Source of the DNA: Bacteroidales bacterium
GTDB taxonomy: Bacteria; Bacteroidota; Bacteroidia; Bacteroidales; Bacteroidaceae
NCBI GenBank assembly: GCA_015060885.1
Contig: SUXO01000020.1
Coordinates: forward strand, 1-37,932
DNA length: 37,932 nt
Direction of reading: 5' to 3'
The position numbers and the translations under genes were made by a program. The stretch's first letter is position 1; the number at the start of each line of letters is the position of its first letter. Of the stretch, positions 1-36,320 are shown in pieces. A model generated the notes under the pieces. It was not told where the DNA came from. It made no database searches and saw nothing but the letters and a program-made list of their open reading frames with translations.

Positions 1-164
1 CCGTCGAAATCAACCTCGATGCCTTCGGGGAGTTCAAGGTCGAACTGGATTGCCGAGAAGGGATAGCCGGGGTTGTTGATGTTGATGAGCAGTGTAGAGC
101 CATCGCCATCGGCCGATACTGTGCTAACCTCACCGGCGCGTGTAGCGGCTGCTTTTGCAGGAGC
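1..164 (-). repeat. Dispersed 164-bp coding repeat, copy 1 (others at 8719-8882 plus and 34468-34631 minus)
   Basis: From the alanine-rich linker (APAKAAATRAGE) into the first strands of the cohesin-like domain, the three loci are almost identical in DNA. Copies 2 and 3 differ at about two positions, copy 1 at about six to eight. Third-codon positions are also conserved, which selection on protein would not require. Confidence 0.8.
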
Positions 165-3100
165 TGCACTTGCAGTATCTTTACCCAGGATTATGGTAAC
201 AAGTGCTGTTGCATCTGCAACTGTCAACTCACCGTCACCGTCAACGTCAGCTGCGGCGGTTGTTTCTACATCACCGAGAATCATTGCAACTACTGCTGTT
301 ACGTCGGCTACGAGAACCTCACCGTCGCCGTCAACATCGCCTGGAAGTGTCTCTTCAACATCTTTAATTTCGGCGAATTTCTCATACAACTCTTCGTTCT
401 TCACAACCGAGTGGAATTCGAATGTCCACATACTGGTTGTTGTAGTTGTATTATATGAGAGGTTTGCACCTCCTGTGTCTACCGCTTTCGACAATGTACC
501 TTTGGTGGCATCGATACCGGTGTATATTATTGCTGCTTTCTCGTCAATGTCATACTCGAATGTTATTGTACGATAATCAACGTCGTCAAATTCGGCTACC
601 ATATAGTAGTTCTGCTCGCGACCGTTTGTTGCGTTTCTGAAACGGTAAACACACATCTCGTACGACTTGTTTATAATTTTGTATCCACCATATTTGTTTA
701 CAGGGATAATTGCCCACAACATATCATCGGTGATGGCCTCTTCGTTTGCTGCTGCAACGAGAGATACACGTTGGTTCGTTGCGTTTACACTCCATACCTT
801 GCCGGTCGATTTACTACGTATAACATACCATTTGATGTTGCTGTCGTTGGTCTCTGTGGGCGATACAACATTGTATTTGCCTTCGATGTTTTTGAGGCTC
901 ACACGCAACTCGGTAATATAATTGTAGTAGCTGTCTGTGTTCTCCCAATCAACAGAAGTGTAGTCGTTGTAGAGGTCTGTAATGTAATCCTGCAAGAGAA
1001 TGTCATTTGAGTAAACATTCTTGTTCAGGAGCACAGTGTCACCCTTTGCAAGCTCAATAGTGTCGGTAACCTCAATAAGTGTCTTTTTCGCTTTTGCTAC
1101 AAGCTCGTTAAGAGTTGCTGTTTCGAATTCAAGTGCTTTGTCTTCGAGTACACGTACAGCCCATCTTGCTTTTGCTTCGCTGGGGCTCATACCAAGCGCA
1201 TTGCCTCCAAGTTTGTTAAGACCAATACTTATCGAAGAGTTGTTCTTCGTTGTGAAGAATGTTCTACCGTCGTTTGAGTAGTTTACATTGAATACGATAG
1301 CCGAACTTGTATACTTGCTCATTGCATATATATCACTGTTGAGTGCTATCGATGAAATGTAGTAACCGTTCTCGTTCTTTATATAGTAGTCACCGGGAGT
1401 GCCTGCGTATTCAAAAGTCCAATGTTTGTCGGCATCATCCTGGTATGTGCCTAATGTGGGGTTGCTTATCTGTCCGATAAGGCCTGTTTCTGCCCAAGTG
1501 AGGTAGTTCGAAGCAAGGCTGTAATGGCCATTGAACATATAGTAGACATTACCCTCTTTAATGGTGACACGTGCCTTTTCGTTGTTTACAACCTTGTTGT
1601 ACTCGTCGTCGAGCATACCACTCCATTCTGCATATGAGTGCTCGCTTGTGTCTTTGTTGTCATACGCGGCCTTTGCTGCTGCATAAACTGTTTCGAGTTC
1701 CGAAACATAATCGGTAAAGTATTTACCTACTTCATTGTTCGACGATGCAATGTTGTTAATAATATATGAAGCGTTTTTGATAGACGCACTGAGTGTCTCA
1801 TACTGCATCTCTTCGGGGCCTTCCGAAGCATTAGGCACAATGTAATCTGTTCCATCGGCTTGTGCTGCAACAATTCTCAATTCGGCACCGACGTGCATTG
1901 CGGGAATTGTCATACTCTTCTTGTTTGTAAAGGTAAGCAATTCACCTGTTTCGGCATTGTACATCTTGAAACCGAGGGCGCCCTTTGCACCGGTGTCCTC
2001 TTTAATCATAATTTTGCCATTAACATTGGTGTAGTAGTAGCCTTGCGCCTTCACGCTTTCATCGATATAATCTTCCCACTGGCCGAAGTCGCCAACATCT
2101 CCAATACGCTCACCATCCCAGTTGGCATAATTGGCGCGATAGCCGTTTTTAATATATTCGTTGTCTTTGAGTCCGCCGATAAGGTCTAATTTCGCGTTAA
2201 GTTCTTCGTTAACGATGTATTTAGAGGGGCGTATACGGTCTTCAAGGAACATTAAGTGTCCGCCTTTCTTCTCATACTTTTGCATACGTGCCTTGCTTGC
2301 ATCGATATCTGCCTGGTGCAAGTATACATAGTGGTGTCCATAGTCGCCCACAAATGCGTTCTTCATAGGAATGAAGAAACCCCAGGCTTCGAAGAACTCG
2401 CTAAGGTCCATTTGCAGAATTTCGCAGCAAACCTCGGCAAACTTCAATTGGTCGTTGAGCGCATTCATAGAGCCGATATAGTAGCCGTTCTCGTCGAGTT
2501 CATCGCGTGCACCGGTGCTCCATCCAACAAGGCGGTCGTAGCGCAGTCTTTCGAACAGTTGAGGATAAAAATCGGGGTGTTTGCCGGCTGCGTATGTGTA
2601 GAGGAAGAGCTGGAAGTACATACGTGTCATACTGAACAATTTACTTCCGTATGCACTCTCGCCGCGTACTACATAGGGTACTTTGTTCTCAAAATCCACA
2701 ATCTGGTTAGTCATGTTCTGGCCACGGCTGGTATGTGTACCCACTGTGAATATAACCATATTTGCGAGGGCGTTGTTGCTGACCTCCGATGTTCCCACAA
2801 TCTCAAATGCATACTGGTTGTTGTGTCCAATCTCGTGGTTGGGGCCCCAAGAACTACCGGCATCGGTAGAAATTACCTCATAGTTTACGATTGTGCTCAA
2901 AGTGTTGTTGTTGTAGTGTGTACGGTGGTTACCGGCGTCCATAAATCCGTTGTCATCGGACATTGCCAACTGCAAGTTGTTGAACCAGGAATAATACTTG
3001 TCGAGGTTCATGAATTTCTGTTGTGTCTTGTTCCAATAATCCCAAAGGGTCATAACTTCGGAAATCTTTTCGGGACAAGCGGCAAGGAATTCTCTTTTGC

Positions 3101-4307
3101 GGAAGTCAAGCAATGTGAAATCGCCTTTGGCCTGTATGGCATCCTCGTTCTTGAACATATTGTTCTTCATATATGTCCAGTCGGCATTTGTGTGTCCGCG
3201 CTCTTTGCTCCAAAAACCGTTGACATAGCCGTTCTCTATGTGTATTTTAACGGCGGGGTAGTCGGCAAGTTTTTTGCCTGCGGTGTCGGTGTCACAAATA
3301 TAACGTACATAGATAACACCATCGCGCTGTGCGGCGGGAACAATGTTCAAACCTTTGCGCAGGGGGGTGTTGGTGCCAAAGTAACCGGTTCCCGACATCT
3401 CGGCAAGTTCAATTGTCGAACCTTCGGGAATTGTGTCTACAAAAACGTATGTATAGCTCTTGTCATCGGCAGAGCATATACCGGTAGGGTTGTCTATGGG
3501 GCTGTAAAGACGTGTATACAGTATGTTAACCCACTTGTTGGGGTTGCTGTAAGGTTTGTAGTCGTATATACGGAACTCCTTCTCGCGTGTAACGCTGTCC
3601 CAAGTGTTGTTCTTTACTTTAAGGGCAACAGCTTGCAGGTCGGCAGGAATTGATGCCGCATCCATTGCGCTTTGCAGGTCGGCATCGCTCATTGCGGCAT
3701 ATTCGGCCTTTAATATTGTGCAGGCTTTGTCCTCGAAGAACGGTTCGAAAGCATATGCAATGTTCAATGCATTGTCGACAACGCTTGTGAAATTCTGGTA
3801 GATTGTGCGCGCTTCTGCAATCTCTTCGGCGGTAATGCTCACCTCCTCAAAAGTCCAGTTGGTTGCCTCTGCACTTGCGTTCCAGGGTACACAGGTACCA
3901 CTGCTGTTACAGTGCATTGCCCAGTTGCTGCCTTTTGTCGATGTTATAGTATAACAGCCGTTAAAATATGTGCTGTTATCATTTATAAATAGGTAGTAAC
4001 TTGTGCTGGGGGTTGTATAGAATGGAACGTTTGTGCCATTTTGGAACCCGAGGTTACGCCCTGTGTACACATTCTGAATTGTGTAGCACGACTCAACACC
4101 GGTTTCTGTTATTATCCACAGTTGGTTGTAGTCTGTGATTGTACCCGCTTTTGCGCAACCAACGGTGTGGTCGGCAACTTTTTCAAAGGCTACTGTTCCG
4201 TATTGCTTGTTTACTATACGATAAACTTTGCCCGATTCAACCTGCGCAGTGGCAACAATGGTTGAAAATACTGTAAGTAGTGACAGTAGTAAGGTTTTGA
4301 TTTTCAT
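1..4307 (-). CDS. Secreted M60-like (enhancin/mucinase-type) zinc metallopeptidase with dockerin and cohesin-like C-terminus, partial
   Basis: Reading the minus strand from ATG at 4307 gives an uninterrupted frame of about 1435 codons that leaves the window at the left edge, so the C-terminus is missing. Residues 1-22 are a signal peptide (MKIKTLLLSLLTVFSTIVATAQ region). Residues 24-155 resemble a ricin-type/lectin-like module. The M60-like catalytic motif HEIGH is at residues 491-495, with the downstream glutamate in GTSEVSNN at 508, matching the HExGH(8-28)E pattern of the M60/gluzincin family; these residues should bind zinc and catalyse peptide cleavage. Two further lectin-like stretches lie near 910-1060 and 1140-1290. 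A dockerin with two DxDGDG EF-hand loops is at about 1321-1374, then the start of a cohesin-like domain. Characterised M60 members of gut bacteria cut mucin-type O-glycoproteins; that substrate is inference here. It is divergent from the gene at 4900, which shares its C-terminal module. Confidence 0.88.
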   Translation of the reverse strand, partial: MKIKTLLLSLLTVFSTIVATAQVESGKVYRIVNKQYGTVAFEKVADHTVGCAKAGTITDYNQLWIITETGVESCYTIQNVYTGRNLGFQNGTNVPFYTTPSTSYYLFINDNSTYFNGCYTITSTKGSNWAMHCNSSGTCVPWNASAEATNWTFEEVSITAEEIAEARTIYQNFTSVVDNALNIAYAFEPFFEDKACTILKAEYAAMSDADLQSAMDAASIPADLQAVALKVKNNTWDSVTREKEFRIYDYKPYSNPNKWVNILYTRLYSPIDNPTGICSADDKSYTYVFVDTIPEGSTIELAEMSGTGYFGTNTPLRKGLNIVPAAQRDGVIYVRYICDTDTAGKKLADYPAVKIHIENGYVNGFWSKERGHTNADWTYMKNNMFKNEDAIQAKGDFTLLDFRKREFLAACPEKISEVMTLWDYWNKTQQKFMNLDKYYSWFNNLQLAMSDDNGFMDAGNHRTHYNNNTLSTIVNYEVISTDAGSSWGPNHEIGHNNQYAFEIVGTSEVSNNALANMVIFTVGTHTSRGQNMTNQIVDFENKVPYVVRGESAYGSKLFSMTRMYFQLFLYTYAAGKHPDFYPQLFERLRYDRLVGWSTGARDELDENGYYIGSMNALNDQLKFAEVCCEILQMDLSEFFEAWGFFIPMKNAFVGDYGHHYVYLHQADIDASKARMQKYEKKGGHLMFLEDRIRPSKYIVNEELNAKLDLIGGLKDNEYIKNGYRANYANWDGERIGDVGDFGQWEDYIDESVKAQGYYYTNVNGKIMIKEDTGAKGALGFKMYNAETGELLTFTNKKSMTIPAMHVGAELRIVAAQADGTDYIVPNASEGPEEMQYETLSASIKNASYIINNIASSNNEVGKYFTDYVSELETVYAAAKAAYDNKDTSEHSYAEWSGMLDDEYNKVVNNEKARVTIKEGNVYYMFNGHYSLASNYLTWAETGLIGQISNPTLGTYQDDADKHWTFEYAGTPGDYYIKNENGYYISSIALNSDIYAMSKYTSSAIVFNVNYSNDGRTFFTTKNNSSISIGLNKLGGNALGMSPSEAKARWAVRVLEDKALEFETATLNELVAKAKKTLIEVTDTIELAKGDTVLLNKNVYSNDILLQDYITDLYNDYTSVDWENTDSYYNYITELRVSLKNIEGKYNVVSPTETNDSNIKWYVIRSKSTGKVWSVNATNQRVSLVAAANEEAITDDMLWAIIPVNKYGGYKIINKSYEMCVYRFRNATNGREQNYYMVAEFDDVDYRTITFEYDIDEKAAIIYTGIDATKGTLSKAVDTGGANLSYNTTTTTSMWTFEFHSVVKNEELYEKFAEIKDVEETLPGDVDGDGEVLVADVTAVVAMILGDVETTAAADVDGDGELTVADATALVTIILGKDTASAAPAKAAATRAGEVSTVSADGDGSTLLININNPGYPFSAIQFDLELPEGIEVDFD

Positions 4308-4385
4308 ATGGTTAATGTTTAAAAAGTTTGCTTTTTATTCCGTATATATGCTCTAATGGCATAATAACTCTAATATATTTCTTTG

Positions 4386-4393
4386 CAAATATA
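4386..4393 (-). promoter_or_regulatory. Possible -7 element (TATATTTG) for the M60 gene
   Basis: On the minus strand this octamer is a perfect match to the Bacteroidota -7 consensus TAnnTTTG, about 80 bp upstream of the M60 start. No convincing -33 TTTG is seen at the usual distance; the DNA upstream is an A-tract-rich stretch. Confidence 0.35.
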
Positions 4394-4800
4394 GTGTTTT
4401 TTTTTAATATGTCTTTTCTTTTTAATATTTATTTGAATTTTAACTTTTGTTTAAAGGAATGTTTGGGCTTATGTCTTTGAAATTTTTATAGGTCTTTTCT
4501 GTGCAAGAAGCTGTCTGAAAGTTATCCGGCTTCTAAATATATATTGATTGGATTGCAGTTTGTGTGCTGTGCCTTTCTTCTCCTTATTTATATTAGTCTC
4601 TTATTTATATTACTCTTGTGCTCTTGTTCTCGATATTATTCCTGTGATGTTCGCCTGTAATAAATTTATCATACTTTTTTATTTTTTCTTTAAAATAATT
4701 GCGTGTTTCGATAAATCTCTACATATTTGCATATTAAAAAGTACGTTCAAATTGGAGTGTATAGTGCGTTTTATGGCTATTGGTTTGATAGTCAAAACGT

Positions 4801-4829
4801 TTTGCAAAAAATGGAATGTGATAATGTTT
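4801..4829 (+). promoter_or_regulatory. Candidate Bacteroidota promoter for the 1467-residue protein
   Basis: TTTG at 4801-4804 and TAATGTTT at 4822-4829 are separated by 17 bp and fit the -33/-7 pattern used by Bacteroidota sigma factor. The TTTG is the right end of a perfect 12-bp palindrome CAAAACGTTTTG (4793-4804), which could be an operator. Confidence 0.45.
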
Positions 4830-4899
4830 AACCGTCGGGAATACCGCCGGTGTTATAAAAGATTATAATTAACCTATTTTATTAACTAATTTCTACGTT

Positions 4900-7800
4900 A
4901 TGAGAAAAAATCTATTTCTAACATTTGCGTTGCTGCTTGCATCATTTGCAACTGTTAACGCACAGTGGTCGCAGACAATGTCTGCGTTGGATGGTTTTGC
5001 CGGCGTAGCAGACGAACAAACCGGCTGCAAAACTATCAAAACCGGTCTTATCACGCCCGATTCTCCAATCGAGGGTTTGCGTATCACAATCGTTGATACA
5101 GAGGCTCCCGAATTGAACAAGGGTGTGACTATGGCGGCTTTTGCCGAAATTAAGGTTCTTGACGGTGAAGGTAACGCACTGAACTTTACTCCCACAAGTA
5201 ACTCTATTCAGACAGGTGGTGCAGACGGTGGCGGTATGCCTGCGTTGAACGATGGTGATTACAATACCTATTACCACTCTTATTGGGGGGGTAGCGGTAC
5301 CAACGATCGTGCCGAGGGCGAGTATGTTTATGTAGAACTTGCATTCGATCAGCCTGTTGAGGCTTTCCGTTTGATGCTTGTTTCTCGTAAAAACACACCC
5401 AAGTTTACTCCCACCGTAGCTGTTCTTACTCCCGCAGGTGTAGTTGGTGTTCCCGGTGAGGTAGGCGAGGTTCCCCAAGGTGAATTTACTCTTGGTGAGC
5501 GTCTTACCACTATGGACGATGTTGTGGCATCTCCCTACGTAGCTCTCAAAACAAACACTTTGAAAGAGTGGACAAAAGATAAAGAGACATATGAGTGGGT
5601 AGGTCCCTACTTCGTAACCGGTACAGGTTCAGGATGCTATGTTTCGGCCGATTCTACACACTTGTATAACTATGCAATGGCGATGACAGTTACCGAAAGC
5701 GCAGCTGTGCCCGGAACATATCATTTTTATAGCGTTGACTATGACGCATATTTCTCAAAAGTCTTGAACGGATATACTCAAAAAGCGTATAACGGACAGG
5801 ACAACTGGCAAGGTTGGCAGGTTGGCGACAGAAATGAAGAGAACGCTGCCGATATCGTAGTGGATGAACTTGCAAACGGCCGTTTTGAGTTCTCTTACGA
5901 AGTTGTACTCGATACCGCGGCTACAAAACTCGATGAGCCGGTAGTTTCTACTGCATACATTGCTGCTCACCCTATACCCACCGGTGGTCGTCCCTTAAAG
6001 ACTTTCGATGGTAACAACAAGGCAGCTTTGAAGAGCGGCATTGTACAGTCTGAAACATATGGTTATCCTGTTGCTTTCGACTTTGAGTTCTATGCTTGTA
6101 CTTATGTAGCTCCCTTGTATCTTGCACAGGCCGAGCTTAATGGCTACCTCTTCGATGCTGCAAATGCGATAGCAAGCTATGGCGGCTTGCAGGACAGCGA
6201 GGCTAACTGGGGCTATGAAGGCTATTATGATGCTTTGGTTCAGGCTATCGAGGATGGTCAGGCTCTTATTGACGGCGGTGCCGGCAGCGAGGAGCTTGAA
6301 GCGTATGCCGATGTTGTGAAAGAGGCTATCGTTTGGTATCTTTATACCGTAGCATACCAGAAGTTTGACGAAATCGACAACCTCTATACAGAGTTGTCAG
6401 ATGGAGGTCTTTTCTGTTCAAACGATGCTCTCGAAGTTGGCAAATACACCGAAGAGTCTTTCGAATCTATCGTTCGTCCTCACCAGACAGTAATGGAGGT
6501 TCTCTATGGCGATGTTGAGTCTTTTGGTGCCGACTATAGTTTGTATCCCTCTCTCGTTGCAGGTTTTGCCGACTATGAAGCTGCACTCAAACAGTTCTAT
6601 GCAGGTAAAGTTGTTGCAACACCCTGGCCCGCTACATTCACTTCGGCCGATGGTTTGCACGTAACAGGTGCAGCTGTTTGGCAGTCACCTCTTATCCGTC
6701 CCGACTTCAATGGTTTGACCGGCTTCCGTATTACATTCTTGGAGGTAGCTCCCAATAATGGTATGTATGGTGGTTATCCTATGGTGAGCCTTTCAGAGTT
6801 TGCCGTTAAGGATGTTGATGGCAACACAATTCCTTTGACCGATGCAAACATCACTTGTAACTCAATAGCTACAAACGAAGGTAGCAATGGTCCTTTGAGC
6901 AATCTCCTCGATGGTGACCGCTCAACATTCTATCACTCAACTTGGGGTGGTGGTGATGCAGCTCCCTCTGAATATGTATATTTCGATGTTGAACTTCCCG
7001 ACACATATGTAGGTATCACAATCGAGTGGATTGCACGTGACCATAGCAATCCCTTCTCTCCCAAGAAAGTTTGTGTAGGTCCTTACGGAGAGAAATACGA
7101 CCCCATTGCAGAGTCGGAGAACACTTACAACGTAACAGTCGGTGCACAGGTTGCCGAGGCTTCTCAAATCCAAGACTGGGGACTTTATGCAATCAAGGGC
7201 TTGCTCGACACCAATGCAAGTGTATTGAGCGAGGAGCAGCTTGGTAAGGAGAACTGGTATTCAGGTACAGGACACTTCCACACAACAGTGGTACGTGAGG
7301 ATTGTGCTTACTTCTTCGTGAAGAACAGCGATGGCACATTCAACATCCTTAACTTGAAGAGCTCTAAATTCTGGGGTGCCGATGCAACAGAAGTCAACAC
7401 AACTTCGGAAGCTGCCGACATTAACATTGTTAAGTCTACCAACGCAGCATTCTCTAACACATTTGTACTTTACAGTGTATTGCCCGAAACAACAATCGAT
7501 ACAGCATCTTTCAAATACGTGTTCGAAGACAAAACCGACTCAATTGAAGTTGCTGAAGTTGAAGTTCCCACAACATACAACGTGTTTATGGACTGGGCCG
7601 GTGGTTTGGCACGTCGTAACTGCGTAGCTCCTCAGCCCGGTATCGCTGACGCTTCAATTTGGGGCGAGCAGGCTGTAAACGTTGAAAAGGTAACCGAATA
7701 TCTCCAAGCTAAATCTTCGGCAGGTGACTACTTGCACTTCAACAAGACCAATGGTGAGGGTGAGTGGAAGATATATCGTCTTACAATGGACAACCCCTAC

Positions 7801-9303
7801 TTCTATTGGTTGACATCACTTGTTGGTATTGCCGAGTCTATGGGTATCACAGAGGGTGTTAACCCCGGTCAATTCGTAGATACCGGTGATTTTGCTGCCG
7901 ACTACGCAGCTGCACAGGCTGTTGTTGAGGCTCAGAATTATGCAGGTGCCGAAGCTGCTGCCAAGAAGTTGGCTGCAACAATGGAGGCAACTGTAAACGG
8001 TAACTTGGTTCGCAACCCCATCACCGAAGGTGTTTATATCTTCGAGGCTGCTCACAGCGGTTATGGTGGCAGAAAGGCTATGTATGTTAAGACTTTGGAT
8101 GATGGCTCACACGACCTCGCTTGGGGTAACAAACCCGAAGACTACACAACAGAGGAGGGCAAAACATTCCTCTTCCAGCTCGAAACATCTCCTTATGTTG
8201 ACGACCTCATCGCCGATGGTGTTATCACAGAGGATTTGAGAGAGTGTGTATACTTCATCAAGAACGTTGCAACAGGTGAGTATGTACAGAACTACACAGG
8301 TGACCCTGCTTACACATTCTCGTTCACAACCGATAATCAGGCTGCGTTTACATATATCTTTAAACGTGGTACAACCGATATCTACACTATCAATACCGAT
8401 GGCCAGGGCCACTTGCACACAGAAGGTCACAGTAACGGTAACGGTAACGCCGGAGATATCGTGAACTGGAACGGTACTCCCGACAATACATCGGCTTCTG
8501 CTTGGCGTTTGATCAAGTATGTTGAGGAAACTACACTTCCCGGCGATATTGACGGTGACGGCGAGGTTCTTGTAGCCGACGTAACGGTGCTGGTTGCAAT
8601 GATTCTCGGTGATGTAGCGACAAACGCCGCAGCTGACGTTGATGGTGACGGTGAGGTTCTCGTAGCCGACGCAACAGCACTTGTTTCCATAATCCTGGGT
8701 AAAGACACTGCAAGTGCAGCTCCTGCAAAAGCAGCCGCTACACGCGCCGGTGAGATTAGCACAGTATCGGCCGATGGCGATGGAGAAACACTGCTCATCA
8801 ACATCAACAACCCCGGCTATCCCTTCTCGGCAATCCAGTTCGACCTTGAACTCCCCGAAGGTATCGAGGTTGATTTCGACGGCGAGTACTACGCAGTTGA
8901 CCTCGGCAGCCGTACAAACAGCCGCAAGCACTCATATCCCGAGTGTGCCATTCAGCCCGACGGTTCACTTCGCGTGGTAATCATCTCAATGAGCAACGCT
9001 CTTTACAACGGCACAGAGGGTGACGTTGCAACCGCATCCCTCAAAGTGAACGGTGCTGCCGATGGCGACTATCAGTTCACCATCAAGAACGTGGTTCTCT
9101 CGGCTCCCGGTTCAAAAGAGAAACTTGAACCCTACACAGGTTGGATTAACGTAACAGGTGGTGTTACCGGTATCGACGAGATTACTGCCGAAGCTGCCGA
9201 TGCAGCTGCTACTGCAATCTACGACCTCCAGGGCCGCAAGGTTAACAGCACTGTTAAGGGTGGTATCTACATCCAGAACGGTAAAAAGTTTATTGCAGAA
9301 TAA
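4900..9303 (+). CDS. Large secreted protein with discoidin-like and lectin-like modules, dockerin, cohesin-like domain and sorting tail
   Basis: 1467 residues. Residues 1-21 form a signal peptide ending at VNAQ. Two F5/8-type C (discoidin-like) modules appear at about 25-190 and 585-720; each holds the same core (DGDYNTYYHSYWGG and DGDRSTFYHSTWGG) followed by EYVYVE/EYVYFDVE. Helical linkers near 425-500 and lectin-like segments near 190-400, 750-870 and 1060-1205 follow. A dockerin with loops DIDGDGEVLVAD and DVDGDGEVLVAD is at 1213-1268, a cohesin-like beta domain at about 1286-1425, and a tail IYDLQGRKV...GGIYIQNGKKF at 1440-1467 similar to type IX-like sorting tails of gut Bacteroidales. 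No catalytic domain was recognised, so it may be a glycan-binding scaffold or adhesin, or an unrecognised enzyme. The C-terminal module is nearly identical to those of the M60 gene (1-360) and the broken LRR gene (34075-34830). Confidence 0.88.
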   Translation: MRKNLFLTFALLLASFATVNAQWSQTMSALDGFAGVADEQTGCKTIKTGLITPDSPIEGLRITIVDTEAPELNKGVTMAAFAEIKVLDGEGNALNFTPTSNSIQTGGADGGGMPALNDGDYNTYYHSYWGGSGTNDRAEGEYVYVELAFDQPVEAFRLMLVSRKNTPKFTPTVAVLTPAGVVGVPGEVGEVPQGEFTLGERLTTMDDVVASPYVALKTNTLKEWTKDKETYEWVGPYFVTGTGSGCYVSADSTHLYNYAMAMTVTESAAVPGTYHFYSVDYDAYFSKVLNGYTQKAYNGQDNWQGWQVGDRNEENAADIVVDELANGRFEFSYEVVLDTAATKLDEPVVSTAYIAAHPIPTGGRPLKTFDGNNKAALKSGIVQSETYGYPVAFDFEFYACTYVAPLYLAQAELNGYLFDAANAIASYGGLQDSEANWGYEGYYDALVQAIEDGQALIDGGAGSEELEAYADVVKEAIVWYLYTVAYQKFDEIDNLYTELSDGGLFCSNDALEVGKYTEESFESIVRPHQTVMEVLYGDVESFGADYSLYPSLVAGFADYEAALKQFYAGKVVATPWPATFTSADGLHVTGAAVWQSPLIRPDFNGLTGFRITFLEVAPNNGMYGGYPMVSLSEFAVKDVDGNTIPLTDANITCNSIATNEGSNGPLSNLLDGDRSTFYHSTWGGGDAAPSEYVYFDVELPDTYVGITIEWIARDHSNPFSPKKVCVGPYGEKYDPIAESENTYNVTVGAQVAEASQIQDWGLYAIKGLLDTNASVLSEEQLGKENWYSGTGHFHTTVVREDCAYFFVKNSDGTFNILNLKSSKFWGADATEVNTTSEAADINIVKSTNAAFSNTFVLYSVLPETTIDTASFKYVFEDKTDSIEVAEVEVPTTYNVFMDWAGGLARRNCVAPQPGIADASIWGEQAVNVEKVTEYLQAKSSAGDYLHFNKTNGEGEWKIYRLTMDNPYFYWLTSLVGIAESMGITEGVNPGQFVDTGDFAADYAAAQAVVEAQNYAGAEAAAKKLAATMEATVNGNLVRNPITEGVYIFEAAHSGYGGRKAMYVKTLDDGSHDLAWGNKPEDYTTEEGKTFLFQLETSPYVDDLIADGVITEDLRECVYFIKNVATGEYVQNYTGDPAYTFSFTTDNQAAFTYIFKRGTTDIYTINTDGQGHLHTEGHSNGNGNAGDIVNWNGTPDNTSASAWRLIKYVEETTLPGDIDGDGEVLVADVTVLVAMILGDVATNAAADVDGDGEVLVADATALVSIILGKDTASAAPAKAAATRAGEISTVSADGDGETLLININNPGYPFSAIQFDLELPEGIEVDFDGEYYAVDLGSRTNSRKHSYPECAIQPDGSLRVVIISMSNALYNGTEGDVATASLKVNGAADGDYQFTIKNVVLSAPGSKEKLEPYTGWINVTGGVTGIDEITAEAADAAATAIYDLQGRKVNSTVKGGIYIQNGKKFIAE

Positions 9304-11931: not shown

Positions 11932-13356
11932 TTACATACCGAAACTTATACTGTTTATGCCACCATACACAAAACTGCAAATGCCAAGCGATATAATGCC
12001 AATGAGGCATATTGCAAGGCTTGCACGGGTTATGATGCTGCACTTGAATGGCGGCACAGGGGTATCGTTCCTGTTTATGTACATAGCCTTTACGATGAGC
12101 AGGTAGTAGTAGAGCGAAATAACGGTGTTTATGAGAGCAATGAACACCAGCACCTTGAACCCCGCACCAAAGGCACTCATAAATACAAAGAACTTGCTGA
12201 AAAAACCTGCAAAGGGCGGTATTCCCGCAAGCGAGAAGAGTGCAAGTGTGGTTAGAAAGGCAAGTTTGGGGTTGCTCTTGTAGAACCCGTCGAGTGTTTC
12301 ACGGCGCACCTCGTTCTTTATATTATGTTCCACGGCACCTATGACACCGAATACAGCGAGGTTGGCAAAAATGTAGACAAGTACATAATATACCATCGCG
12401 CTCATTCCTTGTGCCGTGCCACCAATCATCGCAAGCACAATGTAACCGGCTTGCGAAATGCTGCTGAACGCCATAAAACGCTTTATGTTGCGCTGTTTCA
12501 TAGCAAACAGGTTGGCAATGGTGATACTTGCCACGGTTGTAATGTAGAGAATTGTCTGCCACTGCTCTATCATTGGTGCAAACACCGTTGTGAGTACAAT
12601 GAAGAGTGTGAATGCAGCAGCTCCCTTTGAAATTACCGAAAGGTAGGCCGTGACGGCCGTGGGGGCACCCTCGTAGCTGTCGGCAGTCCACAGGTGGAAG
12701 GGTACAAGCGAAATCTTGAATCCAAGCCCGGCGAAGAACATTACAAGGGCATATATCTGCATTGGCGACGCTGTGAGTCCCTCGCGTACCTCGTTGTAGT
12801 AGAGCGAGCCTGTGGTGCCGTAAAGGAACGATATGCCGTAGAGCATTACAGCCGATGCGAACATCGAGGTGAGGATATATTTAATTCCGGCTTCGGCCGA
12901 ATGGTGGCGGTATTTGTCGAAGGCAACCATACAGGCCATAGGCAACGATGCGAGTTCTATTCCCACAAAGAGCAACAGGAAATGTCGCGCGCTTATCATA
13001 AAGTACATTCCCACAAGGGTGCTCAACAGCAGTATGTAGAATTCTCCCTGTTTGTAGTATGTGGTGGTTATGCGCAGCCACCGGTGTGCCTGCATCACCA
13101 CAATGGCACTGCCGAACGCAAGCATTGCCTTGACAAATACTATCATTGCATTGCTGTGGTACATCCCCTCGAAAAGGGTATATTCGCTTGTGTCGCGAAA
13201 ACATATTACGGTGTGCAGCAGCATTGCTACGCATACCAACGGGTGAAAATAGCGTCGTGAACGGCCGGTGTATATGAGGTCGTAGAGGAATATTATGAGG
13301 AAGAACCCAAGCAGGCTCGCCTCGGGGCGCATATGAAAGAATTGAATGTAATTCAT
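11932..13356 (-). CDS. nuoN: NADH-quinone oxidoreductase-type complex I subunit N
   Basis: 474 residues, a polytopic membrane protein with the proton-translocating antiporter-like core of NuoL/M/N (about 14 membrane helices). Family features include the conserved charged helix region [12 protein letters not shown], the [24 protein letters not shown] segment and the [14 protein letters not shown] helix. It is the last gene of the nuo operon, 19 bp after nuoM, and subunit N is normally at the end of such operons. It forms one of three proton pathways in the membrane arm. Confidence 0.95.
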
Positions 13357-13375
13357 AAAAGTGCTTTATTGTTCT

Positions 13376-14860
13376 TTATGGTTGTATGTTAGTAATGATG
13401 TTTGCAACGCCGCCCTCAATAAGGTGGCTCACCCACATAGGTGCAATGCCGAGGGCAGCCACGCACACCACAAGGCAGATGATGGTGAAACGCTCGTCCC
13501 AACGGGCATCGGTGAGCAGTTTGTGCTCCTCGTTTTCCGGTTCGCCGTACAGTATGCGCCCCACAACACGCAGAATGTACACAGCTGTTATCACAATGCT
13601 TGTGCAGGCAATTATGGTTACCGTGCGGTGGAAAATGTCATCTGTTTCAAAGGCCCCCACAAATATTGTCATTTCGGCAACAAAACCACTGAACCCCGGC
13701 AGTCCCAGGTTGGCCAGTCCGGCAATTATGTAGGTCACGGCAAGGAAAGGCATTATCTTCATAAGGCCGCGCATCTTGTTTATGTCGCGCGTGTGTGTAC
13801 GGCCGTAAATCATACCTATCACGGCGAAGAAGAGGGCGGTCATAAGCCCGTGCGACAGCATTTGCAGTATGGCACCCGTGCAGGCGGTGCGTGTGCTCAT
13901 AAGAAGGGCGAAAAGCACAAGGCCGCAGTGCGACACCGAAGAGTAGGCATTTATATATTTGAGGTCGGTCTGGCTTATCGCGCTCAATGCGCCATAGACA
14001 ACGCTTATGGTAGTAAGTATTATGAATATCCACGCGAGGTCGTGGGCAGCTTGGGGCAACAGGTACATAGCTATGCGGAAACAGCCGTAACCGCCCAGTT
14101 TCATCAGCACGCCCGCGTGCAGCATAGAGACGGCTGTGGGGGCACAGGCGTGTCCGTCGGGGCTCCAAGTGTGGAAAGGGAACAACGCGCCAAGCACGCC
14201 GAACCCAATGAATGTAAGCGGGAAGAATACATATTGCACCTCGCGTGCAATGTTTCCCATTGCGGCAATCTCGTTTATGTTCATTGTGGTTGCTCCGCTA
14301 CCATAGTATATGCCCAGAATGCCTATAAGCAGGAATGCCGAGCCGCCCATGAGCATAAGCGTGAGTTTCATTGCCGAATACTCCTTGCGGCCGCTGCCCC
14401 AAACGCCAATGAGCAGGTACATGGGTATGAGCGCGGTTTCGTAGAACATGAACATTGCGAAGAGGTCGGTCGATATGAAGAAGCCGTAAACGCCGGCCGA
14501 CAGCAGCGTGTACCACAGGAAGAACTCCTTTGTCATCGGTTTCAGCCTCCACGAAGCGAACGTGCCGGTAAACACAATTATGGAGGAGAGCAAGAGCATT
14601 GCCACCGAAATTCCGTCGACACCGATGGAGTAGTTTATGTTCAGCGGTGCATACCAGCTCCACGAGTCGCAGTAGAGCATAGCGGCTGTGTTGCCGGCAT
14701 TGCGCAGGGCAATAAAATCTATTGTAAGGTAAACCGACAGGGCAAGCAGCAGGGTGGAACCTGCAACCATAGCTGCGCGTGTCTGCTGCAATGTGCGGCT
14801 ACACCACAGTGCAAGCAGCATTAGCAGGGGAATTATTACAAAGAGGTTCAGTATATTCAT
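13376..14860 (-). CDS. nuoM: Complex I subunit M (proton-pumping membrane subunit)
   Basis: 494 residues, multi-spanning antiporter-like subunit. It carries the typical NuoM elements YSIGVDGISVAMLLL near the N-terminus, a conserved glutamate in FMFYETALIPMYLLIGVWG, and PFHTWSPDGHACAPTAVSMLHAGVLMKLGGYG with functional lysine and histidines. It sits 9 bp after nuoL and 19 bp before nuoN. Within complex I it is the middle proton-pumping unit. Confidence 0.95.
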   Translation of the reverse strand: MNILNLFVIIPLLMLLALWCSRTLQQTRAAMVAGSTLLLALSVYLTIDFIALRNAGNTAAMLYCDSWSWYAPLNINYSIGVDGISVAMLLLSSIIVFTGTFASWRLKPMTKEFFLWYTLLSAGVYGFFISTDLFAMFMFYETALIPMYLLIGVWGSGRKEYSAMKLTLMLMGGSAFLLIGILGIYYGSGATTMNINEIAAMGNIAREVQYVFFPLTFIGFGVLGALFPFHTWSPDGHACAPTAVSMLHAGVLMKLGGYGCFRIAMYLLPQAAHDLAWIFIILTTISVVYGALSAISQTDLKYINAYSSVSHCGLVLFALLMSTRTACTGAILQMLSHGLMTALFFAVIGMIYGRTHTRDINKMRGLMKIMPFLAVTYIIAGLANLGLPGFSGFVAEMTIFVGAFETDDIFHRTVTIIACTSIVITAVYILRVVGRILYGEPENEEHKLLTDARWDERFTIICLVVCVAALGIAPMWVSHLIEGGVANIITNIQP

Positions 14861-14869
14861 AGCTATTCT

Positions 14870-16795
14870 TTATGCAAGGTATATGAGTACAAGTATTATT
14901 ATAAGTGCACCGCTGAGGAACCACACGCTGTAAGACTGCACGTTGCCGCTCTGTACGGGGCGTATGAAGGTCGCTGCTTTCTGTGTGCCGGCCGCCAGCT
15001 TGTCGAGCGTTCCGTCGATGAATTTGCGGTCGAACCAGGCAATGGGGCGGCTTATGCAGTTGAATATAACCTTCTTCGTGACAAAGAGCCACAGGTCGTC
15101 GATGTAGAAACGGTTGTAGGCGGCCGACATAAGTTCGCGCAAGCTGCTGTTGAGCCCGCGTGTTATGCGGCTGTTGCCGCTCTTGTACATAAGGGTGGCA
15201 AGGAATATGGCTCCAACAGCAAGTGCAATGCTTGTAGCTGCCACACTCTTGTCGATGTGTATCGCGTATGCCGTGCCGTTGCTGCTTATGAACCGGCCGA
15301 ATGGAATGAACCCGGCAACGCAGCTGATGGCTGCAAGGATAATGAGCGGAACAGTCATTGTGGCAGGTGCCTCGTGGGGTTTGTGGGGCTTGTGGGTGGT
15401 GCGCCCTGCATCGTAGAGTGCCTTCTGCTCTTCGTAATGGCTTTTGCCCCAGAAGATGAGATAATAGAGACGGAACATATAAAAAGCGGTGAGCGCGGCA
15501 ACAAAGCTCATAAAAAGCCCTGTCGCGTTGGAGTAGGCATAGCAGGCTGCCAAAATCTCGTCCTTGCTGAAAAACCCGCTAAATGGCGGTATGCCGGCAA
15601 TGGCAAGGCAGGCTATCAGGAATGTGATGTGGGTGATGGGCATATAGCGTCGCAACCCGCCCATATACATCTTCTCGTTGCTGTGAACGCTGTGTATTAT
15701 GGCTCCGGCACCCAGGAACAGCAACCCCTTGAACATCGCGTGGGTAAACAGGTGGAACATCGAAGCCATATATCCGAGCCCGCCGTTGTGGGGGTCGGCC
15801 GATGTGCACACGCCAAGAGCAACCATCATAAATGCAATCTGTGATATGGTAGAAAAGGCCAGTACACGTTTTATGTCGGTCTGCACGCAGGCCACCACGG
15901 CTGCATATAGTGCGGTGAAGGCCCCCGCGTATGCAATTATATGCAGCACGTCGGGCGCATACTCCACAAAGAGCGGGAACATACGCGCTACAAGATATAC
16001 GCCTGCAACAACCATTGTGGCGGCGTGTATAAGTGCCGACACGGGCGTGGGGCCCTCCATTGCATCGGGCAACCATATATGCAGGGGGAACATCGCGCTC
16101 TTTCCAGCACCGCCCACGAACATCAGTCCCAGGGCCGTGGGCAATACTCCGCTTGCTGCTATGAGCGCACTCTCTTGTGGAGCGAAAGTGAATGTGCCGG
16201 TGTAATATCCGTAAATGAGTATGCCGATGAGGAAAAAGAGGTCGGCAAAGCGTGTCACGATAAATGCCTTTTTCGATGCCGCAATGGCCGCAGGCTTTGT
16301 GTAGTAGAACCCTATGAGCAGGTACGATGATACTCCCACAAGTTCCCAGAATATATACATCTGGAATATGTTGGTTGCAACCACAAGCCCCAGCATCGAG
16401 AATGTGAACAGCGAGAGGAATGTATAATATCGCTGGAACCCTCGCTCGCCCTTCATATATCCCAGTGAATAAATGTGTACCATAAGGCTCACGGTCGATA
16501 TGACAATGAGCATCATCACCGAAATCGGGTCGAGCATAATGCCCAGGTCGATGCTTAACGTATCGCCCAGTGGCAACCACTCAATGTTGAACGGCGTTAT
16601 CGTGGCAAAAATGCCCTCGGCAGTGCGCCCTGCACCAAAATATATGGCAGCGGTGGCGTATGCCAGAACGGTTACTGCCGTCAGCGTGGCTGTGCCTGTT
16701 ATGCCTGCCGCCTTGTGCGACATAAATTTGCCTGCAAGAGCCAGTGTGAGAAAACTCAACAGGGGCAAGGCGAGTATCGAAAGTGTGAAATCCAT
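14870..16795 (-). CDS. nuoL: Complex I subunit L (distal proton-pumping membrane subunit)
   Basis: 641 residues, normal for NuoL. Antiporter-like core helices include FSMLGLVVATNIFQMYIFWELVGVSSYLLIGFYY and FPLHIWLPDAMEGPTPVSALIHAATMVVAGVYL. The C-terminal extension after about residue 500 should contain the lateral helix that runs along the membrane arm. It is separated from nuoK by 69 bp, the widest gap in the operon; that gap carries an imperfect inverted repeat described separately. Confidence 0.95.
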   Translation of the reverse strand: MDFTLSILALPLLSFLTLALAGKFMSHKAAGITGTATLTAVTVLAYATAAIYFGAGRTAEGIFATITPFNIEWLPLGDTLSIDLGIMLDPISVMMLIVISTVSLMVHIYSLGYMKGERGFQRYYTFLSLFTFSMLGLVVATNIFQMYIFWELVGVSSYLLIGFYYTKPAAIAASKKAFIVTRFADLFFLIGILIYGYYTGTFTFAPQESALIAASGVLPTALGLMFVGGAGKSAMFPLHIWLPDAMEGPTPVSALIHAATMVVAGVYLVARMFPLFVEYAPDVLHIIAYAGAFTALYAAVVACVQTDIKRVLAFSTISQIAFMMVALGVCTSADPHNGGLGYMASMFHLFTHAMFKGLLFLGAGAIIHSVHSNEKMYMGGLRRYMPITHITFLIACLAIAGIPPFSGFFSKDEILAACYAYSNATGLFMSFVAALTAFYMFRLYYLIFWGKSHYEEQKALYDAGRTTHKPHKPHEAPATMTVPLIILAAISCVAGFIPFGRFISSNGTAYAIHIDKSVAATSIALAVGAIFLATLMYKSGNSRITRGLNSSLRELMSAAYNRFYIDDLWLFVTKKVIFNCISRPIAWFDRKFIDGTLDKLAAGTQKAATFIRPVQSGNVQSYSVWFLSGALIIILVLIYLA

Positions 16796-16864
16796 TGCTT
16801 CTTGGAAACTGTTTAAATTTCTTGTAAAATATATATCAAAGCTGAATAAATCTCAAACAGCTTC
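16796..16864 (-). repeat. Imperfect inverted repeat in the nuoK-nuoL gap
   Basis: On the minus strand GAAGCTGTTTGAGATTT and AAATTTAAACAGTTTC are near-complementary 16-17-bp arms around about 27 bp. The second arm, extended to 21 bp (16802-16822), recurs exactly upstream of purL at 22878-22898. It could attenuate or process the nuo transcript between K and L, or be a dispersed repeat. Confidence 0.5.
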
Positions 16865-17176
16865 TTAATGTTTAAGTTCTCTCAATCGTTTGATGTGTAT
16901 CGAGTGTATGTTGCGGTACACGTTTATTATTATGGCTATTGCCACGGCAGTTTCGGCAGCTGCAATTCCAATGCCGAAGATTGCGAACACATACCCTTCG
17001 AGCAGGCCGGGGTGGCAGTAGGCATTGAACACTGCAAAGTTTATATCCACGGCGTTGAGCATAAGTTCGGTGCTTATGAGCAACGATACGAGGTTGCGTC
17101 GGGTGAAGAACCCGAATACTCCTATAAAAAAGAGTATTGCCGACAGTATAAGAAAGTAGTGTGCAGGTATTATCAT
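16865..17176 (-). CDS. nuoK: Complex I subunit K
   Basis: 103 residues with three predicted membrane helices. The helix-2 pattern LVSLLISTELMLNAVDINF contains the conserved glutamate of NuoK that takes part in proton transfer, and FGIGIAAAETAVAIAIIINVYR holds the second one. Only 6 bp separate it from nuoJ. Confidence 0.93.
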   Translation of the reverse strand: MIIPAHYFLILSAILFFIGVFGFFTRRNLVSLLISTELMLNAVDINFAVFNAYCHPGLLEGYVFAIFGIGIAAAETAVAIAIIINVYRNIHSIHIKRLRELKH

Positions 17177-17182
17177 GGCTCT

Positions 17183-17692
17183 CTATTTTTTGCGTGCGAT
17201 AAGTATTGCTCCCACCGTGCAGGCGAGCAGCAGTATGCTCAGTACCTCGAACGGCAGTATGTAGTTATAGCGGTCGGTTCCCATTATTGCCAGGCCGAGC
17301 GATTTCATAGGTACATCTTTTCCCATAAAGTGCGTAGCATCGAAGGCGGTGGAATCTATAAGGTATATTGTTATGACTGCTCCCGAAAGGGCCGACAGGA
17401 GTCCGGCAAGGTAACGCAGTTTCGACGTGTGCGTGATGTCGATGCTTCCTTTGCCAATGAGCAGAATGGCGAATATGAAAAGCACCACAATACCGCCCGC
17501 ATACACCGTTATCTGCACCGCTCCCAAGAACGTGTAGTGCAACATAAAGTATAGGCCGGCAGTGCCGAAGAGCACGAACAGCAGCAGGGTGGCGGCGCGC
17601 ATAATGCGGCTCGACGTAACAGCGAACATTGCTGCCAGAATCATAAAGAGAGCAAGCCCCGAAAATATAAAAAGGTTATTGTGAAACTCCAT
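17183..17692 (-). CDS. nuoJ: Complex I subunit J
   Basis: 169 residues, five membrane helices expected. The conserved NuoJ core YAGGIVVLFIFAILLIG (helix 3) is present. The C-terminal part is shorter and more variable, as in other members. It follows nuoI after 5 bp and precedes nuoK by 6 bp. Confidence 0.92.
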   Translation of the reverse strand: MEFHNNLFIFSGLALFMILAAMFAVTSSRIMRAATLLLFVLFGTAGLYFMLHYTFLGAVQITVYAGGIVVLFIFAILLIGKGSIDITHTSKLRYLAGLLSALSGAVITIYLIDSTAFDATHFMGKDVPMKSLGLAIMGTDRYNYILPFEVLSILLLACTVGAILIARKK

Positions 17693-17697
17693 ATTCT

Positions 17698-18144
17698 CTA
17701 TCTGTTTAGTTTAAGTACAAGTTTGCTGCGGTCGAACACCGCGTTCTCAAAGTCGTTGTTGAAGCGTATTGCATCCTTCGGGCAGGCATTCACGCAAAGC
17801 TGGCAGAATGTGCAACTGCCCAGGTCGTAGCTGTATTCGGCCAGCACTTTGCGGCTCTTTCCTGTGGCCTCGTCGGTAATGGTCGATGTGGTGATGCTTA
17901 TGGTACCGTTGGGGCAGGCATTTTCGCACAGCCTGCAAGCAATGCAACGGTTGCGCCCCTCCTCGTCGAGGGGCATATAAAGGCGTGCGCGGTGTCTTTC
18001 GGGTATGTGCAGCGTGGCGCGGTTTTCGGGGTACTGCTCGGTAACCTTCGGTCTGAAAAACTCAACGACAGTTGTCTTTAAGCCGGTGAGCAGCGAAGCC
18101 ACCGTAGTGGCAACAATTCCTATGTATGTATCTTTAATTCTCAT
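17698..18144 (-). CDS. nuoI: Complex I subunit I, two-[4Fe-4S] ferredoxin-like subunit
   Basis: 148 residues. Two cluster motifs CIACRLCENACPNG and CTFCQLCVNACPKD (CxxCxxCxxxCP) bind the N6a and N6b [4Fe-4S] clusters that carry electrons toward NuoB. An N-terminal amphipathic segment fits membrane attachment. Since NuoEFG are absent, the electron donor to this subunit is not NADH through NuoF; in related Bacteroidota the natural donor is unresolved, with ferredoxin or flavodoxin as candidates. Confidence 0.95.
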   Translation of the reverse strand: MRIKDTYIGIVATTVASLLTGLKTTVVEFFRPKVTEQYPENRATLHIPERHRARLYMPLDEEGRNRCIACRLCENACPNGTISITTSTITDEATGKSRKVLAEYSYDLGSCTFCQLCVNACPKDAIRFNNDFENAVFDRSKLVLKLNR

Positions 18145-34058: not shown

Positions 34059-35357
34059 TTACCACATAACCTTTTTGCCGTTCTGTATGTAGATACCGCC
34101 CTTGACAGGCTCTGTTACCTTGCGGCCTTGCAGGTCGTAGATTGCAGTAGCAGCTGCTGCATCATCGGCTACGATAGAGTCGATACCTGTAACGCCACCG
34201 CTTACTGTTATCCAACCGGTGTAGTCGGCAAGTACCTCTTTACCGGTAGATGAGATAAACACGTTCTTGATGGTGAAGGGATATTCGCCATCGGCAGCAC
34301 CATTGGCTTTGAGAAGCACTGTTGCTACATCACCCTCAGTATCTTTGAAGAGAGCGTTGCTGAGTGACATAATAACAACACGCAAAGAACCGTCGGCCTG
34401 AACTGCGCACTCGGGGTCTGAGTGTTTGCGGTGTGCACGGCTACCGAGGTAAACCTCATAGTACTCACCGTCGAAATCAACCTCGATGCCTTCGGGGAGT
34501 TCAAGGTCGAACTGGATTGCCGAGAAGGGATAGCCGGGGTTGTCGATGTTGATGAGCAGTGTTTCTCCATCGCCATCGGCCGATACTGTGCTAATCTCAC
34601 CGGCGCGTGTAGCGGCTGCTTTTGCAGGAGCATCGTTTGCTGTTCTCGTTCCCAGGATTATGGAGATGAGTTCTGTTACGTCGGCAACATCAACTGTGCC
34701 GTCGCCATCGACATCGGCAGCATCGGTTGCGAGCGAGTTGTCGAGAATCATCGACACCAATGTGGTGGCATCGGCAACGTCGATAACTCCATCGCCATCG
34801 ACATCGCCCGTGAGGCTGTTTGCCTCTTCAACAATATTGGCAAAGTTCTTCCAGTGGGTTGTTGTCAATTTTGTATCCCCTTCTACGGGAATGAGCATTA
34901 TCTGGTCGAGCAAGAAGCGGAAAGCAAACCGGTTGGCATTCTTGGCAGTATAAAGTCCGTTTCCTTCATTATACTGCAATGGACGCAAAAGCTCAATGTT
35001 TACATCCACACTATGATTGTTTACAAAGTCAAAAATATAATCTTCGTTATTCGCATCCTTCAAGAAGATGGTATCTATGCGCGAACGGTCGGGAACAATC
35101 GCGTGCTTCTCCCACACACCGAAATTGGTATTTGAAGTACCAATGTTGAACGAATCGCAAGGGAACATAGCAAGCTGTTCATTGTTCTGGTTTACACGTA
35201 CACGCAGATAAGAGTCGGCATATTGCGGGTCGATAGATGAGCTTATCAATGTATCGCTGTACGATTCTATGAACCAGGGTACTGTAACAAGTGCTATTTT
35301 ATATCGCCCGTTACGTGCAATGCTCGTCTCGAACGTGGCTTTGGGCAGGTCGGTCAT
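34059..35357 (-). CDS. C-terminal fragment of the broken LRR protein: beta domain, dockerin, cohesin-like domain, altered tail
   Basis: 432 codons from an ATG at 35357, but this is probably not a real start: there is no signal peptide, and the same frame continues upstream past a single TAA (35367-35369) into LRR coding sequence. Residues 1-170 are a beta-rich region (GRYKIALVTVPWFIESYSDT). The dockerin has loops DVDGDGVIDVAD and DVDGDGTVDVAD at about 184-238, then a cohesin-like domain (about 255-390), then IYDLQGRKV..GGIYIQNGKK. The frame ends in KVMW; in another frame the DNA continues as KGYVVNGKKVVVND then stop, the remains of a second tail. May still be translated as a stand-alone cytoplasmic fragment, but more likely inert. 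Confidence 0.55.
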   Translation of the reverse strand: MTDLPKATFETSIARNGRYKIALVTVPWFIESYSDTLISSSIDPQYADSYLRVRVNQNNEQLAMFPCDSFNIGTSNTNFGVWEKHAIVPDRSRIDTIFLKDANNEDYIFDFVNNHSVDVNIELLRPLQYNEGNGLYTAKNANRFAFRFLLDQIMLIPVEGDTKLTTTHWKNFANIVEEANSLTGDVDGDGVIDVADATTLVSMILDNSLATDAADVDGDGTVDVADVTELISIILGTRTANDAPAKAAATRAGEISTVSADGDGETLLINIDNPGYPFSAIQFDLELPEGIEVDFDGEYYEVYLGSRAHRKHSDPECAVQADGSLRVVIMSLSNALFKDTEGDVATVLLKANGAADGEYPFTIKNVFISSTGKEVLADYTGWITVSGGVTGIDSIVADDAAAATAIYDLQGRKVTEPVKGGIYIQNGKKVMW

Positions 35358-35759
35358 TTTTGTTTTTTACGGTTGATAGGCAAGCAGATAGTCGTTTCCA
35401 TTGAGAGTGCCGGCAACATCGGGGTTCTGCGCTTCCACTTTCACAGTCTCATATTGGGCTTCCTTATCGAATCCGCTCATAGAAGCCAACAGGTCGTTAT
35501 TGTAAACCGGCAACCTCCTAATCTCCATCTCCTCTCTTTGCGAAGTGCTCGATTGGTAGGCAGCCTTTGTGCCCGCCGGAACGTGGAGGGTAGCACTTGC
35601 ATAATGTTCGGCAAAGGCCTCGCTATCGAGCAACGCAGGTATGCTACCCAGTGCATATATATCTTTAAGAGCAGTGCAACCCTTGAATGCGTCTGCGCCA
35701 ATTGCAGTTACACCATCGGGGATTGTCACACCGGTTATGACCGTATTTCCATTGAACGC

Positions 35760-36320
35760 ATTATCACCAATCATATAACTGCCGCCCTTGTAATTTGCAG
35801 GAAGTGAAATTATAGAGTCATTGCCAATGTAGGCATAGAGAGTATTTACCCCATCAATTATAGTAAATATATAATCTCCTTCGAACGAACCGTCAGGCAC
35901 ATTGATTACCTTGTCGGCATAATAGGCAACGTAGCCATTACCTGTTGAGCCCTTTATTAGTTTTAAAGAAGAAAAATTATAAACAGTTTTAAGGCCCGTG
36001 CAACCATAGAACGCATTGCTTTCTATCGATGTTACGCTATTTGGGATTTCAATGCTTGTGAGGCCTGTGTAACCACGGAACGCATTGCTGCCAATTACAT
36101 AATTCTAGCTCTTGTAATTTTCGGGAAGCGTTATTGTAGAACTGTTGCCAATATAACCACACAAGGTATTTACCCCATCAATTACTCCAAAGACATAATC
36201 TCCTTCAATGGAGCCATTAGGCGCATTGATTACCTTGTCGGCATAGTAGGCTACATAACCATTAGTGGTACTGCCCTTAACTATATTCAAAGAAGAATTG
36301 TTGGCTACGGTTTTTAGGCC
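35760..36320 (-). repeat. Diverged 324-bp tandem duplication in the LRR gene
   Basis: Segments with KGSTxNGYVAYYADKVIN and EGDYxFxxIDGVNTL occur twice, offset by 324 bp (for example 35911 and 36235). The TAG stop lies in the upstream copy, where the other copy encodes glycine (NYKGGSYMIG against NYKS-stop-NYVIG). Confidence 0.75.

Follow-up and report, generated by a model that had tools for sequence, protein, structure and literature searches.

We find that three genes on a 37,932-nucleotide contig from Bacteroidales bacterium (GenBank assembly GCA_015060885.1, contig SUXO01000020.1; hereafter the window) share a C-terminal cassette in which a type I dockerin is followed by an Ala/Pro-rich linker of ~30 residues, a cohesin and a sorting-like tail. 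The window is the whole of contig C49 in an 88.5% complete genome of 2.24 Mb and 64 contigs, so all module counts given below for this genome are minima.

The cassette genes of the window

Two of the three genes are divergently oriented at one end of the window, with 592 bases between their start codons. P0001 (3..4307, minus strand) encodes an M60 peptidase with a signal-like N-terminus, a HEIGH motif at residue 491, a ricin-B-like region, an M60_C domain, a dockerin (198..344, minus; 35 bits in the genome scan) and the first ~44 residues of a cohesin (3..134, minus; 74.7 bits with profile A1, built from 11 copies of the domain in this genome); its tail is not visible because the contig edge cuts the gene there. 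P0002 (4900..9303, plus strand) ends in the complete cassette, with its dockerin at 8539..8685, its cohesin at 8749..9162 and, at 9166..9294 (all plus), a tail that was assigned with a tail profile and has counterparts on other proteins of the genome. Zero catalytic domains are recognised in P0002, and its weak Pfam matches to F5/8-type-C (24.6 bits, cut-off 28.2) and beta-trefoil (20.8 bits, cut-off 27) domains fall below cut-off. In P0003 (34059..35357, minus strand), the dockerin (34656..34808, minus; 36.3 bits in the genome scan), the cohesin (34194..34601, minus; 219.3 bits, profile A1) and the tail (34065..34190, minus; tail profile) follow an LRR (leucine-rich repeat) region. Two F-hand calcium loops together with a match to the PF00404 profile identify the dockerins as type I; the Pfam Dockerin_1 scores are 29.1 bits for P0001, 32.5 for P0003 and 21.6 for P0002, the last slightly below the cut-off of 22.9 and 28.8 bits in the genome scan.

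A preliminary description of this DNA had noted a pair of DxDGDG loops and, after them, a beta domain, and we confirm this arrangement in both proteins of positions 1-9303 and in the frame at 34059-35357; its view that the cassette is common to an M60 peptidase, a discoidin-like protein and LRR proteins is likewise supported. The module of the third copy is as described, but the "gene" is not. P0003 forms the 3' end of a BspA-like LRR gene that is broken, since its frame continues upstream as LRR frames of 245 and 572 amino acids, with in-frame stops in between; an LRR_5 piece (35367..35900, minus) lies directly upstream in the same frame, with a stop between. The BspA-like gene spans 34059-37800 on the minus strand with two in-frame stops, its paralogue on contig C18 (L064) is uninterrupted there, and the interruption is either a broken gene or an assembly error.

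The window copies of the beta domain match no Pfam or NCBIfam family. Two predicted models of the P0002 domain, of moderate confidence (mean predicted local distance difference test, pLDDT, 56.5 and 67.9), adopt a cohesin beta-sandwich fold whose best PDB matches are cohesins, and structure comparison places the cohesins of Clostridium perfringens GH84 and GH33 (GH, glycoside hydrolase) nearest to the window copy among solved cohesins. A wider family profile, A2, gives 14 PDB matches, all 14 cohesin-bearing, and the Pfam cohesin model PF00963 finds 26 of 61 family members at E up to 1 and misses the other 35. Profile A1 was rejected for this purpose: none of its 11 PDB matches is a cohesin (ten MEF2/MADS-box chains at E 0.13-0.76 and one periplasmic protein at E 0.065), and only A2 reached cohesins. 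The predicted fold and the family profile thus bear out the earlier suggestion of a cohesin-like domain and support its identification as a cohesin.

Module census and the sorting-like tail

Frames were assigned with dockerin, cohesin and tail profiles built in this analysis. The census of module-bearing proteins that the preliminary description had proposed yields nine frames in this genome with both a dockerin and this cohesin, one protein with this cohesin and no dockerin, and 20 frames with a dockerin and without this cohesin, two of which look like one stop-cut gene. The cohesin-only protein (C43:256-873) consists of a signal-like peptide, a cohesin and a tail; a further gene, truncated by the contig edge to its cohesin end and tail and outside the counted frames, terminates 62 bases upstream of it. 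A module search of the genome returns 51 places at E up to 10, mostly dockerin-only or tail-only matches, and a weak dockerin match at C20:44174 (17.9 bits), missed by our profile, is uncounted. Cohesin carriers are of several protein kinds, with LRR proteins recurrent. Two of them hold two cohesins each, an LRR protein on C13 (cohesin-dockerin-cohesin-tail) and a CotH protein on C20 (dockerin-cohesin-dockerin-cohesin-tail); two is the maximum per frame, and no non-catalytic scaffoldin with a cohesin array is found in this 88.5% complete genome. The earlier reading of the divergent pair as enzyme plus scaffold is therefore weak, because both neighbours bear the same cassette and frames of this genome show at most two cohesins.

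A Pfam scan of 10 of the 20 dockerin frames reveals three LRR proteins, a C10 peptidase that also carries LRRs, an M6 peptidase, one GH2 and one GH31 protein, an Endonuclease I, a Cthe_2159-like protein and one frame with a dockerin match only. The dockerin-bearing enzymes of this genome include M60, C10, M6, GH2 and GH31 families. The GH31 (L071:7535-11494, on C57, minus strand) has, besides its dockerin, a Pfam Cohesin match of 32.4 bits in the genome scan that hmmscan of the same frame does not list.

Seven of the nine cohesin copies share 93-97% DNA identity; the remaining two, from P0003 and C10, match the others at 71-84%. Upstream of the cohesin, identity declines within ~60-180 bases (values from fixed bins of 60 bases, which indels lower), and the dockerins are accordingly, for the most part, more divergent than the cohesins. 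Near-identical cohesins on varied carriers, with identity declining just upstream, suggest that the cohesin end was recently copied or underwent gene conversion. Positions 10 and 11 of clostridial dockerins carry specificity. Among 52 dockerin loops of this genome, collected with a pattern that required D at positions 1 and 12, V or I occupies position 10 in 49, A or S position 11 in 47 and T position 14 in 50, and the dockerins look like one class by these residues.

The tail follows the cohesin. Our tail profile matches eight of the nine dockerin-plus-cohesin frames (the ninth, P0001, is cut), the cohesin-only protein and 0 of the 20 other dockerin frames (the GH31 counted among the 20), nine of which stop no more than 5 residues past the dockerin. 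In each of the nine complete frames with this cohesin, the tail comes immediately after the last cohesin. We read the tail as T9SS-like (T9SS, type IX secretion system), and the genome encodes SprA and PorV; PF18962 is found on dockerin partners from other families, above cut-off in three of seven and below it in two of seven. Comparable tails also occur on proteins of this genome that bear neither module. One of them lies in the window, an LRR_5 protein at 28136-29845 (minus strand) whose tail is like that of the cassette proteins.

Dockerin-cohesin gene pairs in related Bacteroidales

Two sets of loci were used to follow the modules beyond this genome. A search of genome contigs gives two loci related to the window, L092 and L093, the named loci being labelled Bacteroidaceae and Prevotellaceae; by these relatives the genome falls in Bacteroidales. 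Set 1 comprises 63 loci, mostly from the window's genus and family: these two and, for the rest, part of the A1 profile matches, with 19 matches outside this genome omitted (a hand count that includes 11 frames of 1,531-1,602 amino acids and four short frames of 112-145). Set 2 comprises 40 loci from 28 of the 31 cohesin-matching genomes of an order-wide sample, the other three (G000, G063 and G081) being already covered; the scan scored at most 10 candidates per genome, two further matches in the set 2 genomes are omitted, and one locus, L245, holds zero modules by our profiles.

We find that cohesin genes without an in-frame dockerin tend to lie directly downstream of a dockerin gene, in 48 of 62 assessable cases across both sets. 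Set 1 holds 74 cohesin proteins, 36 with an in-frame dockerin and 38 without; of the latter, 28 are directly behind a same-strand dockerin gene (28 of 35 assessable), three are second after a cohesin-only gene, three are at a contig edge and four have neither neighbour. The order-wide set behaves alike: 49 cohesin proteins, 17 with a dockerin and 32 without, these comprising 20 directly behind a dockerin gene (20 of 27 assessable, in 12 families by kinship codes), three second, five at an edge and four with none. The reverse order, a dockerin gene directly downstream of a cohesin gene, serves as a control and occurs in 1 of 49 cases (0 of 27 in set 1, 1 of 22 in set 2). A pair was scored where the dockerin frame ends -250 to +400 bases from the cohesin frame, a rule written after both listings were read; an earlier, narrower rule missed one pair (L162). 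Fisher test values, which take related proteins to be independent, are not used as probabilities.

Dockerin-free cohesin frames also include arrays, with 3-10 cohesins in 18 of them; in G063, neighbouring genes with 8 and 5 cohesins stand behind a dockerin gene, and in G108 one frame holds 10. G063, from another Bacteroidales family, has three multi-cohesin proteins in all, with 8, 5 and at least 7 cohesins (L124 on C25; L127 on C18). The partner cohesin in relatives may be N-terminal, up to ~2,600 residues from the C-terminus, or arrayed. Upstream dockerin partners of set 2 include S8 subtilases in four of the seven that were scanned, and at the genome level dockerins occur in 25 of the 31 cohesin genomes versus 63 of 362 others. 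For 20 of the 48 pairs, no more than 30 residues separate the end of the dockerin from the C-terminus of its protein, and all 20 partners end in a tail as judged by eye (L138 least clearly); tail sharing as a general rule was rejected, being true of these 20 only. Dockerins and cohesins of the pairs co-diverge, with Mantel r of 0.86 and 0.69 (0 of 2000 permutations), a correlation to which we give no weight because shared ancestry explains it equally and it falls to 0.16 and 0.55 among dissimilar pairs.

Proteins that combine a dockerin, a cohesin and a comparable C-terminal end are found repeatedly in the window's genus (L136, L137, L139, L150, L165, L167, L170 and L174); L136, the one of these eight loci that was scanned, and L063 of this genome are CotH proteins.

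Probable trans docking, its alternatives and known systems

We think it probable, from gene order and domain content, that docking is in trans, with dockerin proteins attaching to cohesin carriers that bear the tail, in a surface cassette system with a shared socket. The tail would place cassette proteins on the cell surface by T9SS-type export, the largely near-identical cohesins would act as one common socket, and tail-less dockerin proteins that lack this cohesin, among them peptidases, GH2, nuclease, carbohydrate-binding and LRR proteins, would plug into these sockets via calcium-loaded dockerins of a single class. The dockerin of one cassette protein could also join it to another, giving chains or networks. 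In related Bacteroidales the same logic would often be split over two adjacent genes, dockerin gene then cohesin gene, and the cis cassette is plausibly a fused form of this pair. Trans docking is favoured over self-latching and over a purely structural role because of the gene order, the co-occurrence of the modules, the arrays and the dockerin-only enzymes; the preliminary description had left open whether the proteins chain together or self-latch, and the adjacent genes in relatives and the many dockerin proteins without this cohesin lend the stronger support to docking in trans.

Several observations weigh against trans docking. In this genome no dockerin-cohesin gene pair can be demonstrated, the one candidate sitting at a contig edge. 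Most residues of the dockerin part of the P0002 model have pLDDT below 50, and the model is therefore uninformative on docking. The window tails match no Pfam or NCBIfam model at E up to 1, including curated sorting-domain models, and for this reason we infer rather than assign their T9SS role. The GH31 with a genome-scan Pfam cohesin has no tail, and in set 1, whose frames are often truncated by the fetch edge and whose divergent tails escape the profile, the tail is found on 12 of 36 dockerin-plus-cohesin frames, 14 of 38 with a cohesin only and 2 of 20 with a dockerin only. Eight assessable cohesin proteins (L127, L128, L133, L169, L228, L229, L240 and L248) have neither a dockerin gene directly upstream nor an intervening cohesin gene; L127, with 7 cohesins, is a clear exception to pairing, and L133 represents one half of a frame-split gene, the other half being among the three set 1 cases that stand second. 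The dockerin is not C-terminal in 28 of the 48 pairs, and most such dockerin proteins appear, by reading, to own a tail. Paralogous cassettes and same-genus pairs are, moreover, non-independent events.

Both modules do occur on one chain, in nine frames here and in 36 of the 74 and 17 of the 49 cohesin proteins of sets 1 and 2, and the ~30-residue linker of the window cassettes would fit a dockerin that folds onto the cohesin of its own chain, a closed cap shielding the C-terminus or controlling the tail, with no assembly between proteins. We consider such self-latching unlikely, given that cohesin-only and dockerin-only proteins are common and that adjacent-gene pairs and 18 dockerin-free frames of 3-10 cohesins do not fit it. 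The invariable position of the last cohesin directly before the tail in this genome, together with Dockerin_1 matches in 63 of 362 sample genomes without this cohesin, is what would be expected if the beta domain were a structural spacer and the dockerin a calcium-stabilised stalk, neither binding the other; this, too, is unlikely, as partner cohesins of relatives can be N-terminal, up to ~2,600 residues from the C-terminus, or arrayed, and the order-wide sample has dockerin-cohesin gene pairs of fixed order in 12 families.

Two further proposals bear on what the assembly would do. In the 20 pairs in which a tail-less protein ends in its dockerin and a T9SS-like tail closes the cohesin protein encoded downstream, the sorting signal may be split between two proteins, with the pair forming in the periplasm and being exported and anchored together, the dockerin protein riding its cohesin carrier; in this genome the homogenised cohesins would then serve many tail-less dockerin proteins. 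We offer this as a tentative possibility. A multienzyme complex directed at mucin, an equivalent of the Limousia mucinolysome, which is compatible with trans docking and differs from it in specifying the target, seems doubtful. The M60 peptidase in the cassette set, GH2 and GH31 proteins with dockerins, and the nearness of the C. perfringens GH84 and GH33 cohesins are in its favour; against it, C10 and M6 peptidases, Endonuclease I and LRR proteins are likewise in the dockerin set, and no cohesin array is seen in this genome (two cohesins per frame at most), in which other mucin GH families were not searched for. The surface assembly unlike a classical cellulosome that had been proposed for this DNA thus stands as the best reading, and its mucin-directed part, suggested by family names, is unproven.

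Classical cellulosomes use the same dockerin and cohesin families and place cohesins in scaffoldin arrays, unlike the one or two per frame seen here, although arrays do occur in other Bacteroidales. Adams et al. reportedly described cohesin/dockerin glycosidase complexes of C. perfringens. These resemble the present system in carrying single cohesins and dockerins on catalytic proteins, and their cohesin folds are nearest to the window copy; P0001, with an M60 domain and the start of a cohesin on one polypeptide, shares with them the joining of a cohesin to a catalytic domain. C. perfringens differs in being Gram-positive and without a T9SS-like tail, whereas here a multi-copy, largely near-identical cohesin end is found on several protein kinds.

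The cited papers are represented here by excerpts. A dockerin-to-cohesin gene pair, as found here in relatives, goes unmentioned for C. perfringens in that of PMC12997984. The same excerpt describes a GH31 with both modules in C. perfringens and another in A. muciniphila, so the cis arrangement claimed for the window is present but, taken alone, not new. It also describes the mucinolysome of the gut bacterium Limousia, with dockerins on peptidases and glycosidases and two scaffoldins bearing both modules; that system, of the Firmicutes, has tandem-cohesin scaffoldins and an LPxTG anchor, unlike this genome. The cellulosome-like complex inferred for Ca. Stygibacter (Cloacimonadota), with a multi-cohesin scaffoldin-like protein and a conserved C-terminal surface domain, is similar in its C-terminal dockerins on peptidases and GHs and differs in phylum; a cis cassette and gene pairing are undescribed in the excerpt, which also mentions a "planctosome" in Planctomycetes (PMC8542988). 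Camel rumen bins include certain Bacteroidetes with cohesin, Bacteroidetes bin 136 being among the tandem-cohesin bins, in a report whose excerpt gives domain counts only (PMC6071333), and dockerins are reported in Bacteroidetes bins (PMC6071333, PMC7480376); excerpts of two other papers report cellulosomal dockerin components as absent from the Bacteroidetes they discuss (PMC5831590, PMC6247017). In 78 Bacteroidetes metagenome-assembled genomes both modules were found together, which was called surprising and left open (PMC12997984).

Among the open-licence papers that our searches listed, we found no report of the dockerin-cohesin gene pair or of the cassette, and both look new, the cis arrangement alone being known in kind. 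We take the observation, made in a gut-type bacterium, to be genuine, beyond what chance would give and one part of a broader system, and it suggests an overlooked cell-surface assembly system in Bacteroidales. The question raised by the presence of both modules in Bacteroidetes becomes concrete: a cohesin family in which the window copies and, at E up to 1, 35 of 61 members escape Pfam, ordered gene pairs in many families, arrays with as many as ten cohesins, and the cis cassette of the window genome. Every gene pair is a ready-made candidate binding pair. If binding holds, Bacteroidales would own a surface assembly system beside their polysaccharide utilization locus machinery, and the tail-less dockerin proteins would raise the question of joint export.

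A scan of viral contigs returns no relatives. Between the cassette genes of the window lies a Complex I (nuo) gene cluster (11932-20845, minus strand).
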